A stretch of 32,620 bases of DNA, taken from assembly GCA_937904325.1 (NCBI GenBank), contig CALGTK010000439.1:1-32620 (forward strand). Direction: 5' to 3'. Every line of letters starts with the position of its first letter. Positions within the stretch are counted from its first letter, which is position 1. A program made the translations under genes and the position numbers. Positions 14,699-18,489 of this stretch are shown piece after piece. The stretch is from an uncultured Planctomyces sp. (GTDB taxonomy: Bacteria; Planctomycetota; Planctomycetia; Planctomycetales; Planctomycetaceae). Under the pieces are notes generated by a model. It was not told where the DNA came from. It made no database searches and worked only from the letters and a program-made list of their open reading frames with translations.

Positions 14699-16708
14699 AT
14701 GGTGACAAGGATGTCCCACAGCCACTTAATCTGTTTGCTGGCCGGCGCAGCCATCTGTACCGTTCCAGTGTACGAAGAATCGAAGCTGGTGAGCCTCACT
14801 TCGTCAGCCACAGCAGCGCCGCACACGATCAGCAACGTTGAGCATCCATACGACGTGAACTGGCCAGACGTCCGCCTGATGCTCGCTCAAAAGTGCAACG
14901 CGTGCCATCGCCCCGACACCGAGCAGACGGACCTCACCAACTGGGAAGCGTTGGTCGACACACCACATCTTCATGGCAAGAAACTTGTCGTGCCGGGCAA
15001 GCCGGAGTCGTCGTTGCTGTGGCAATACGTCGTCTGGAACGCTTCGGAGCGGCTCGACTCTGAAGAAGCCGAAAAGCCGCTCATGCCGCCAGAGAAATCC
15101 GAGTGGCTCACAACCGGACAACTGGAAACTCTGAAGCGATGGATCCGAAATGGCGCTCTCAAGTACCGCTTGCCGGATACCTGTGACACGTGGCCACTTA
15201 CCGAACTGGATTTCCCATCAGCCAGAGAATGCAGCACTTGCCACCCTAAACAGTACACCGAATGGTCGCGTTCGATGCACGCTTACGCGCAACACAGTCC
15301 GGTGTTCGAGGCCTTCAACCTGACACTGCAGGAACGAACCAGCGGAACGCTTGGAACGTTCTGCACTCGCTGCCACGCGCCACTTAGTGCGGCACTCGGA
15401 GAAAACGGGCAGCGTCGAAACGTGAACCGCTCTCGACTTTCGATGGAAGGCGTGACCTGCATAACCTGCCACCGAGTTGCTAAGCCATACTACAAAGCCG
15501 GCACTCGTCGGCACATCGTTTCCGGGAAGCTTTCGGAAGGATGTATGTTCGGACCTTTCCAGAATGAGATCTCGGTCGACGACAACCTACACGGTGCGAC
15601 AAAGTCTGTCTCGATCAGATCGAGTGCCTTCTGCGGAACTTGCCACGACGTTTACAGCCCGGAAGGCATCCGTCTGGAAGAAGCATTCAGCGAGTGGCTG
15701 AACAGTCCCGCCGCAAAAAATCAACAAACCTGCCAGCACTGCCACATGGGTCCCGTTCAAGGAAAGCCGTTCCTTGAGTGTGAAAGACCACTTGGTCGAG
15801 CAGCCACTGTGCCAGGCATCGATCCTGAAACAATTCCGCTGCGACCACTGTCGGATCACACATTTGCCGGCCCGGACTACTCGTTGCTACCAGATACAGA
15901 GTTTCCGTACAAACTCGACTGGATGTACGAAACAGATTACCGGCGTACGGAGCGTCTAACGCTGCATCAGAAAATAACGCTTAATCAGCTTCGTCACAAA
16001 AACCGCAAGCAGCTCCGCGTCGCTCGTGAAAAGCGATACGAACTTCTGCAGAACGCGGCGGAGATTCTCGTAACGGCCCCTGAAACTGCGTCCTGCGGTG
16101 ATCGGATTTCGGTTCGTGTCGACGTCCGTAGCCTTGTTGCCGGACACAACTTCCCAACGGGCTTCACCGAAGAACGTCAGCTTTGGGTCTCTATCGAACT
16201 TTGCGACGAATACGGGCGGAACGCATTTATCACCGGCAACTTCGACCTGAATGGGGATCTCCGAGACGAACACAGTCACGCAGTACTCGGCGGACATGCT
16301 CATTGGGATCGGAATCTTCTGAACTTTCAAAGTAAGTTCGTCGGGCTGGCTACTCGTGGCACGGAGCGACCGCTGATTCTTTCAGTCAATCGGCAGCTCG
16401 CACCACTCAACATCGTCCGACCCGCCTCTGAGCCGACAGCCGCTTTTGGCCGACCATCGACGTTCCGAATTTCCAAAGGCAGCCTTGCACCACTCAGCAC
16501 CGCGTCGAAGAAGTACTCTATCACCGTTCCTGAGCAGACAGGTCGCTACAGCCTGCGAGTTCGACTGAACTATCGACACATCCCACCTCACCTGATGGAC
16601 GAAATTGGAACGCCACACTTGAAGCCGCTGCTCGAAACAGTCGTCATCGACCAGCACGACTGCGTGATGCAGGTTGGACATCGTCGAGGGGGACTCTTCC
16701 TGCGATGA
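14699..16708 (+). CDS. Hexahaem c-type cytochrome with PSCyt1-like N-terminus
   Basis: 669 residues from ATG 14699; ATG 14711, directly after AAGG, is an equally possible start. A signal peptide spans about 5-40. Six CxxCH haem sites are visible: CNACH 66-70, CSTCH 178-182, CTRCH 222-226, CITCH 254-258, CGTCH 312-316 and CQHCH 345-349. The first lies in a PSCyt1-like domain that ends KPLMPPEKSEWLT, where Met could be the distal ligand. The other five form a block resembling cytochrome c554-type multihaem proteins (CHPKQYTEWSRSMHA). Residues after 360 form a haem-free, beta-rich C-terminal part with GHNFPTGFTEERQLWVS. Probably periplasmic electron carrier or redox enzyme. Its last four bases overlap the start of the next gene (ATGA), indicating coupled translation with a probable outer-membrane protein. 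Confidence 0.9.
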   Translation: MVTRMSHSHLICLLAGAAICTVPVYEESKLVSLTSSATAAPHTISNVEHPYDVNWPDVRLMLAQKCNACHRPDTEQTDLTNWEALVDTPHLHGKKLVVPGKPESSLLWQYVVWNASERLDSEEAEKPLMPPEKSEWLTTGQLETLKRWIRNGALKYRLPDTCDTWPLTELDFPSARECSTCHPKQYTEWSRSMHAYAQHSPVFEAFNLTLQERTSGTLGTFCTRCHAPLSAALGENGQRRNVNRSRLSMEGVTCITCHRVAKPYYKAGTRRHIVSGKLSEGCMFGPFQNEISVDDNLHGATKSVSIRSSAFCGTCHDVYSPEGIRLEEAFSEWLNSPAAKNQQTCQHCHMGPVQGKPFLECERPLGRAATVPGIDPETIPLRPLSDHTFAGPDYSLLPDTEFPYKLDWMYETDYRRTERLTLHQKITLNQLRHKNRKQLRVAREKRYELLQNAAEILVTAPETASCGDRISVRVDVRSLVAGHNFPTGFTEERQLWVSIELCDEYGRNAFITGNFDLNGDLRDEHSHAVLGGHAHWDRNLLNFQSKFVGLATRGTERPLILSVNRQLAPLNIVRPASEPTAAFGRPSTFRISKGSLAPLSTASKKYSITVPEQTGRYSLRVRLNYRHIPPHLMDEIGTPHLKPLLETVVIDQHDCVMQVGHRRGGLFLR

Positions 16709-18489
16709 TCAGGCCGACATACCCATTACAGCTCTTCGGAAAAATCATTCGCTGTCGCGGTGTGAGGAGCGTGTGCATTCTGCTGGCAGCTACAGTCATT
16801 GTGACTGGGACGTCTACAGGAGCCGACTCTGTTTTCCTGCAAGGTGTCAACCGCCTACTGGAGTCATCCTTGCCAGTAGTGACGAATTATAAGCCTGAAT
16901 CAACCGTTCGAATTGGTCCTTCATCATCGTTGTCTGCTTTGACAGCTCGGCCGTCACCTGATCCCACAACGGACTCGTCGACCGAAACCCGATCCGTTGC
17001 TCAGACCATCGCTCATCAACAAAGTGGTTCCACACAGGCTCCGCTCAGCACTGGCAACGTTCCCAACCCACCAGAACCTCACCGGTTCACCGCAACAGCC
17101 GCTTCGGAAGGCGACGTCCCGTTGCCTTCGCTGGCTGCCGAACTTCAGCGTTTCGGAGGCTCGTCTCTCTACGAAGCCGCAGGCGGACACGCGAACGCGG
17201 ATTTCCTTTCGCACGACGACGATCAAGTCAAGATGCTCAGGCTGCCTGAGTCGTGGGAGAAGCCATTGCCGACAGCAACGGCGTATCAGGAATTTCTCGG
17301 CTCGGATCCAGTCGGTTCGTGGGAAGGGCTGAAATGGTTCGGCGACAATGGTTTTCAATGGGAACCTCGATTGGTTGCTAATGGCTCGTACGAAATGTTC
17401 GGACTGTTTCTTGAACAAGGAGGAACTCGCCAGGATAGCGTCGGACATCAACTCATTGTCGACTTGGATTTACGTCTGACCGGTACGGAGCGTGCCCATG
17501 TGCAATTTCGACCACTCGGACGACGTAATACTGGTGGTTCATTCTTCCGTCTCGACGATCCAACCGGGTACGACGACAACTCGACCGGCATCCCTGATCG
17601 GTGGTGGATCGAAGGTGAATTCTACAGTCTGTTCGGCGGCCTGATTGACGACCAGTTTACGCCACTGGACTATCACATCACCGTTGGAAAAGTTCCATAC
17701 GCAGTTCACAACTCGTTGCTGATCAACGACGAAGTCACGGGACTCATCGTTAATAAAAACACGCTGCTGATCCCGCCGCTCAGCAACCTTAACGTTCAAG
17801 GCTTTTACTTCTTTGACGACGTAGACACGGCAACGCCTCGTTCGGCGGAACTGGTCGGAATGCACGCTTCAGCGGACTGGCGTAACGCTTTCATTGAAGG
17901 GACTGTCGCTTACGTCAGCCACGCAGACGACAACCAATTCGACTCCCGATACGCTGCCTTAAGCACCACGCAGTTCTTTGGTCCAGTCACACTGGCAGGC
18001 CGAGCGTTGTTCAAAGACGGCGACGAAGGTGGAACCGGTGACGGATCCCTGTTCGTCGCCGAAAGCAATCTGACGCGTCTCGCGCCGCGCGAAATCCGAT
18101 GTGCTACCGGCATAGAACATGTCGTATTCTACGGAAACTTATTTAAAGCGACGAGCGGCTGGAGCCCGATCAGCGGAGCAAACTTCAACCGACTGCGAAG
18201 CTCGTTCGCAGTCGATCCGCTGATTCGAATCGGTCAAGGCGTCAACCCGGCTGACACAATCGGAGCGTCCCTGGGCGTTCAACTCTTCCGCAACCACGAG
18301 GACGAATCCATCACTCCCGAACTTGCCTGGGAGCAACCACAGGGCGACTCGGTCTGGGGAGTGGGCCTGCGCTGGCAAAGAAAACTCGGCCCACAGATTT
18401 TTCTCGACGCTTCCGGAATCATTTCCCGATCCGACAACCGCCAACGCGAACGCGAAGGCATCTTCGTCTCAACCTTCATCGTATTCTGA
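16705..18489 (+). CDS. Probable outer-membrane beta-barrel (porin-like) protein coupled to the cytochrome gene
   Basis: 594 residues. A basic N-terminus and hydrophobic stretch (20-38, SVCILLAATVIVTGTSTG) form a signal peptide. Residues about 45-150 are low-complexity, rich in Ser, Thr and Pro. From about 215 the sequence alternates in the way of transmembrane beta-strands: EPRLVANGSYEMFGLFLEQG, HQLIVDLDLRLTGTERAHVQ, and so on. It ends in GIFVSTFIVF with a terminal Phe, as outer-membrane barrels do. Planctomycete carbohydrate or conduit porins are the nearest idea, but I recognise no specific family. The ATG overlaps the cytochrome stop by 4 bp, so the two are made together. Shared work in electron transfer across the outer membrane is an inference from this coupling only. 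Confidence 0.75.
   Translation: MIRPTYPLQLFGKIIRCRGVRSVCILLAATVIVTGTSTGADSVFLQGVNRLLESSLPVVTNYKPESTVRIGPSSSLSALTARPSPDPTTDSSTETRSVAQTIAHQQSGSTQAPLSTGNVPNPPEPHRFTATAASEGDVPLPSLAAELQRFGGSSLYEAAGGHANADFLSHDDDQVKMLRLPESWEKPLPTATAYQEFLGSDPVGSWEGLKWFGDNGFQWEPRLVANGSYEMFGLFLEQGGTRQDSVGHQLIVDLDLRLTGTERAHVQFRPLGRRNTGGSFFRLDDPTGYDDNSTGIPDRWWIEGEFYSLFGGLIDDQFTPLDYHITVGKVPYAVHNSLLINDEVTGLIVNKNTLLIPPLSNLNVQGFYFFDDVDTATPRSAELVGMHASADWRNAFIEGTVAYVSHADDNQFDSRYAALSTTQFFGPVTLAGRALFKDGDEGGTGDGSLFVAESNLTRLAPREIRCATGIEHVVFYGNLFKATSGWSPISGANFNRLRSSFAVDPLIRIGQGVNPADTIGASLGVQLFRNHEDESITPELAWEQPQGDSVWGVGLRWQRKLGPQIFLDASGIISRSDNRQREREGIFVSTFIVF

Follow-up and report, generated by a model that had tools for sequence, protein, structure and literature searches.

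A cytochrome-barrel gene pair in a planctomycete contig

The first 32,620 nucleotides of contig CALGTK010000439.1 from an uncultured Planctomyces sp. (assembly GCA_937904325.1; hereafter the window) contain two adjacent genes respectively encoding a hexahaem c-type cytochrome and a predicted outer-membrane β-barrel protein (Table 1), which we interpret as the components of a putative two-gene outer-membrane redox unit. A sequence-only reading of this DNA had drawn attention to a cytochrome with six CxxCH motifs and a Phe-ending protein overlapping it by ATGA, and the coordinates, reading frames and overlap which it gave were all found to be exact. A Shine-Dalgarno-like run, GAGGGGGA, lies just upstream of the start of the barrel gene, within the cytochrome gene. 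As the nearest upstream gene on the same strand stops 335 bp ahead of the pair and the downstream neighbor is convergent, the two genes look like a stand-alone two-gene operon. Both window proteins have signal-like N-termini, and no lipobox was found in either of them or in their counterparts from 17 related loci (18 homologues in all). Below we refer to the window pair and its close homologues, in which the cytochrome is hexahaem and includes an N-terminal monohaem domain, as type A, and to more distant pairs with five haems as type B.

Domain architecture of the two proteins

The abundance of haem-binding motifs in the cytochrome is far from what composition would give: 5,000 shuffles of the sequence yielded a mean of 0.03 and a maximum of 2 CxxCH motifs, against the 6 of the real protein. 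All six are invariant across the 18 close homologues, none of which shows CxxCK or any other variant catalytic haem motif. The window cytochrome also has no in-frame TGA codon, unlike the selenoprotein ExtKL. The label of a PSCyt1-type cytochrome, which the sequence-only reading had applied to the whole protein, would fit the domain of the first haem only. This domain scores 20.9 bits against PSCyt1 (PF07635), just below the Pfam gathering cut-off of 22, with 7 of the 18 homologues matching at E<=0.001, whereas the other five haems belong to an MtrC/ExtKL-like pentahaem module. Within the monohaem domain W55, C66, C69, H70, W113, M129 and W148 are invariant in the 18 type A sequences, while 20 type B sequences have gaps or dissimilar residues at the corresponding positions; the invariant Met129 is plausibly the axial ligand of the first haem. 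Type A cytochromes have two further conserved cysteines, C162 (17 of 18 sequences) and C282 (18 of 18), which type B lacks and which might form a disulfide.

The pentahaem module matches, over residues 175-350, the profiles for domains II/IV of MtrC/MtrF (PF22113) and for cytochrome c554 (PF13435), and its relatives include cytochromes c554 and c552 and MccA. It is also recognized by the ExtKL profile NF040886 (E 1.4e-12), with a score of 46.9 bits that covers residues 175-351 only and misses the curated cut-off of 250 bits. The five CxxCH motifs shared by the two types, together with His194, His298, His387 and His483, are present in all 38 type A and type B sequences, and His525 in 33 of them, so that the conserved histidines would be nearly sufficient for full bis-His ligation.

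The assignment of the second protein to the outer-membrane barrels, which had been made from its strand pattern and terminal Phe, is supported by structure prediction. AlphaFold2, run on an 18-sequence alignment, predicts 18-19 strands over residues 222-593, mostly at a predicted local distance difference test (pLDDT) score of 80-93, with disorder at about residues 30-200. Foldseek searches of the PDB with this model returned 18-strand outer-membrane channels with E down to 1e-11, and VIA-align 2 gave Z scores of 24-27 over about 300-330 residues (top 27.4 over 321 residues) against Campylobacter MOMP and the BenF-like, OccK/OprD and AlgE channels. The protein itself has no match in Pfam, NCBIfam or PDB sequence searches. 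It shares the predicted 18-strand fold of OprD/OccK, MOMP and AlgE over the whole barrel, but differs from them in its low sequence identity (7-13%), its lack of a Pfam match and its cytochrome partner. Structures of MtrB and Cyc2 were absent among the fold matches listed, which by itself excludes nothing. The long region preceding the barrel is probably periplasmic, and the loop in the most conserved stretch of the barrel (residues 260-303) is a candidate constriction or docking loop.

Table 1. Features of the cytochrome-barrel pair, with positions in the window and residue numbers of the encoded proteins
Feature	Position	Strand	Details and basis
Hexahaem c-type cytochrome, 669 aa	14699..16708	+	Signal sequence, PSCyt1-like monohaem domain, pentahaem module, C-terminal β-rich domain; open reading frame, invariant CxxCH, Pfam PF22113 (E 4.3e-9) and PF13435 (E 9.3e-8)
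N-terminal monohaem domain, residues ~49-158	14843..15172	+	CNACH at 66-70; PSCyt1 subthreshold match at residues 66-116; invariant residues
Pentahaem module, residues ~172-400	15212..15898	+	CxxCH starting at 178, 222, 254, 312, 345; candidate distal His 194, 298, 387; motifs and His conserved in 38/38; profile matches
C-terminal β-rich domain, residues ~440-660	16016..16678	+	Conserved GHNFPTG (His483); AlphaFold2 strands at pLDDT 70-91 in parts
ATGA overlap of cytochrome stop and barrel start	16705..16708	+	Sequence
Predicted outer-membrane β-barrel protein, 594 aa	16705..18489	+	C-terminal Phe (in 17/18 aligned sequences); AlphaFold2 model, Foldseek, VIA-align
Long N-terminal region of barrel protein, residues ~41-215	16825..17349	+	Mostly unstructured (pLDDT mostly <50); motifs LPPLEEELxxHGGSYLYEPEG and LRLPExW; invariant L140, L143, E146, G151, G152, Y156, L178, R179, L180
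Predicted 18-strand barrel, residues 219-594	17359..18486	+	AlphaFold2, Foldseek, VIA-align
Most conserved barrel stretch, TGTER...QFRPLG..NTGGS...IPDRWW.EGE, residues 260-303	17482..17613	+	Includes long inter-strand loop; TER and E303 kept in 15-16/16 type B barrels; invariants in type A alignment

Conservation of type A pairs in planctomycetes

Close relatives were collected by a scan of GTDB contigs and, separately, from an evenly drawn set of 392 planctomycete genomes. The contig scan recovered 17 loci with close relatives of the cytochrome (53-87% identity), all planctomycetal where named and including those of Blastopirellula marina DSM 3645 and Thalassoglobus neptunius; the barrel gene lies directly downstream on the same strand in all 17. 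Of the 392 genomes, 12 encode a close cytochrome and 12 a close barrel; these are one and the same set, and in every one of them the two genes lie side by side. Two of these genome-draw loci are also among those of the contig scan, and the combined set amounts to 27 distinct type A loci, window included. Conservation of the pair across planctomycetes, which the sequence-only reading had proposed as a check, is therefore seen in every close homologue found and in the identity of the two genome sets, and the co-occurrence of the two genes is far beyond chance. The ATGA overlap itself is present in part of the type A family only, the genes of other members being up to roughly 160 bp apart. No third gene beside type A pairs is common to them beyond close species or genera.

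At one locus (L042) we considered a fusion of cytochrome and barrel of the kind seen in Cyc2, and rejected it on finding a stop codon between the genes. Cyc2-type proteins combine a haem domain and a barrel in a single polypeptide, whereas the window encodes them in two genes.

Relationship to type B pairs and PCC4 clusters

Distant homologues of the barrel (22-34% identity) were found in 47 of the 392 genomes, namely 46 without a type A pair and one (G137) with both types. Nearly everywhere that the flanks of these type B barrels were read they stand beside a distant homologue of the cytochrome, which has five CxxCH motifs and no N-terminal monohaem domain. Types A and B are fully separated, with 100/100 support, in the trees of both proteins. 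These observations bear on one alternative, namely that the two genes are merely co-expressed and functionally unrelated, for example a general porin and a detoxifying cytochrome. The lack of conservation in the rest of the neighborhood would be in keeping with this; however, the adjacency holds from 87% down to ~25% identity and across dozens of genera, and both trees make the same deep splits, which leaves it very improbable.

Type B loci often hold, in addition to the pair, tetrahaem and decahaem cytochromes, a cyclic nucleotide monophosphate (cNMP)-binding/PF13247 iron-sulphur (Fe-S) protein, an FNR-like flavoprotein and a membrane protein of ~275 residues with two WX3HX13H motifs and an SGXXG motif. 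The PCC4 clusters described by He et al. (2017, PMC5566968) comprise a porin, cytochromes with 4, 5 and 10 haems and an inner-membrane protein with WX3HX13H and SGXXG motifs; their subgroup II has a PF13247 protein and includes Planctomycetes, and the system was proposed from genomes to serve extracellular electron transfer (PMC5566968). Based on the matching gene content and inner-membrane motifs, we identify many of the type B loci as these PCC4 clusters.

Further variants of the module were also seen. Tandem genes for five-haem cytochromes or whole duplicated pairs occur beside the type B barrels of four loci (L080, L082, L068 and L076), suggesting repeated duplication of the module. One type B pair (L084; G064:C55) lies near cytochromes with 17 and 15 CxxCH motifs. 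A third well-supported clade of five-haem cytochrome and barrel pairs (L080, L090, L091 and L094) is split off alike in both trees.

The window pair shares with PCC4 the adjacent porin and five-haem cytochrome, its own cytochrome having these five haems plus one. It differs from PCC4 subgroup II in its extra monohaem domain and in the missing partners: neither the window nor the surroundings of type A loci showed a cytochrome with 4 or 10 haems or an Fe-S or inner-membrane protein of the PCC4 kind. Of the 47 type B genomes, 26 have a gene for the PCC4 inner-membrane protein at most ~17 kb from the pair, whereas it is near none of the 12 type A pairs, and 10 of the 12 type A genomes gave no match at all to the inner-membrane profile. 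In G137 the match lies beside the type B pair, which is some 170 kb distant from the type A pair, and the window's own genome gave a match that is weaker, split and on a different contig. On another contig than the window, this genome has a locus (L109; G000:C156:1-5407) in which the gene for a cNMP/Fe-S protein precedes that of an 806-aa protein and a multihaem open reading frame cut by the contig end; the 806-aa protein has two HX13H haem-b motifs separated by a long Ala/Pro/Lys-rich insert, resembling a PCC-like inner-membrane module, and no porin was recognized nearby. The presence of the monohaem domain thus goes with the absence of the usual PCC4 partners, and we infer that this domain takes over their role of connecting to periplasmic carriers. 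The window pair belongs to a clade separate from type B, and our best reading is that it constitutes a reduced, PCC4/Ext-like outer-membrane redox unit.

Width of the channel and comparison with other porin-cytochrome systems

The pairing of a porin with a multihaem cytochrome, and the match of the pentahaem region to PF22113, are reminiscent of the MtrAB, MtoAB and PioAB systems, which differ from the window pair in having 10 rather than 6 haems and 26 rather than 18 strands; no decahaem MtrA-type cytochrome is encoded in the window. MtrA, which measures roughly 80 x 30 x 35 Å, is seated in the 26-strand MtrB (PMC7198977). From barrel geometry we estimate a backbone diameter of ~33 Å and a lumen of ~23 Å for 18 strands, and about 47 and 37 Å for 26 strands. 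The haem wire inside an MtrB-like barrel which the sequence-only reading had envisaged is therefore not upheld: the barrel has a predicted 18 strands and not 26, and sheathing in the style of MtrAB is doubtful as a lumen of ~23 Å is narrower than the 30 x 35 Å of MtrA. A sheathed wire would require that some slim portion of the cytochrome, most plausibly its monohaem domain (compare Cyc2) or else a tightly packed stretch of the pentahaem module, inserts into the barrel and carries electrons to extracellular partners as in MtrAB. The gene pairing and the kinship to PCC4 are compatible with such a conduit, and a single-haem domain might just fit the estimated lumen. However, the monohaem domain is missing from type B pairs, and no extracellular cytochrome is encoded nearby. 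Together with the strand number and the width of MtrA, this makes a sheathed conduit unlikely.

A parallel is offered by the ExtHIJKL system of Geobacter, in which a porin stands beside the periplasmic pentahaem cytochrome ExtKL with no surface cytochrome, and which supports partial metal reduction (PMC6148476) as well as selenite and tellurite reduction, ExtI being proposed to import selenite (PMC5877670). The haem region of the window cytochrome matches the ExtKL profile, but its 47 bits compare with a cut-off of 250, no gene for a rhodanese lipoprotein lies beside the window pair, and the likeness seen is that of the cytochromes. Porin-multihaem cytochrome clusters have also been reported in Verrucomicrobia (He et al. 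2017, PMC5615132), of the same PVC superphylum, where a porin likewise stands beside a periplasmic multihaem cytochrome; these differ in having 8 haems and at least 20 predicted transmembrane segments.

A serious, if rather unlikely, alternative is that the barrel is a substrate-specific uptake channel feeding a self-contained periplasmic multihaem reductase or oxidase of the NrfA, Otr or Mcc kind, with no electrons passing across the membrane and no connection to a chain that exports electrons. The proposed role of ExtI as a selenite importer (PMC5877670) provides a precedent, the nearest folds of the barrel are the substrate-specific OprD/OccK/BenF and AlgE channels, and c554, c552 and MccA are among the relatives of the pentahaem module. 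Set against this are the lack of a variant catalytic haem motif in the type A cytochromes, a supply of conserved histidines that nearly suffices to ligate every haem from both sides, and the setting of type B pairs, among several cytochrome genes and a gene for an inner-membrane b-type protein.

A proposed mechanism

We propose, with a probability of about 0.5, that the two genes encode an outer-membrane redox unit which either descends from the PCC4 outer-membrane pair or is sister to it. In this proposal the hexahaem cytochrome would be exported to the periplasm by its Sec-type signal, without lipid anchoring at a lipobox, and its pentahaem module and β-rich domain would sit at the periplasmic mouth of the 18-strand channel. 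The N-terminal monohaem domain, with putative His/Met ligation, would exchange electrons with soluble periplasmic c-type carriers and would thereby stand in for the tetrahaem, decahaem and inner-membrane partners of PCC4. Electrons would then pass to or from a small redox substrate, such as a metal ion, a chelate, an oxyanion or a shuttle, that enters through the channel; a wire sheathed by the barrel is not part of this model. The N-terminal extension of the barrel protein, with its LPPLEEELxxHGGSYLYEPEG motif, and the TGTER...EGE stretch are candidates for docking of the cytochrome and for constriction of the channel. In favor of the proposal are the strict adjacency of the two genes, the predicted 18-strand barrel with its estimated lumen, the haem motifs and histidines common to both types, the PCC4 make-up of type B clusters, and the example of the Geobacter Ext system, which works with a porin and a periplasmic pentahaem cytochrome in the absence of a surface cytochrome.

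Several considerations weigh against this proposal. To our knowledge, the cultured type A carriers Blastopirellula marina and Thalassoglobus neptunius are aerobic heterotrophs for which metal respiration is not known. The AlphaFold2 model of the whole cytochrome is poor (mean pLDDT 46) and gives no guide to docking or haem geometry. The assignment of type B loci to PCC4 is a genomic hypothesis that draws on cluster content and inner-membrane motifs. Finally, the difference between type A and type B in the nearby inner-membrane gene, which was found by profile search and tallied by hand, has a Fisher p of 5.5e-4 that ignores shared ancestry.

Implications

The sequence-only reading had regarded a unit of this type as new, and this stands in part. 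A stand-alone pair with a PSCyt1-extended cytochrome was found nowhere described in the literature searched (most subscription journals lay outside that search), while the wider family was reported in 2017. The porin-cytochrome system was already known as a genomic prediction, in the form of PCC4, and what seems new is the stand-alone two-gene form in planctomycetes.

This raises the possibility, which we advance tentatively and regard as doubtful, of a minimal self-sufficient unit in aerobic planctomycetes, arising when a PCC4 outer-membrane pair gained a monohaem relay and shed its inner-membrane and multihaem partners. Were this the case, a narrow 18-strand channel and one six-haem protein would suffice. 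If the proposed redox unit is real, porin-cytochrome units would be reducible to two genes with a narrow channel, and outer-membrane redox chemistry would extend to planctomycetes that are ordinary, culturable and without known metal respiration. The two-gene operon would also permit a simple genetic test in strains such as Blastopirellula marina and Thalassoglobus neptunius.

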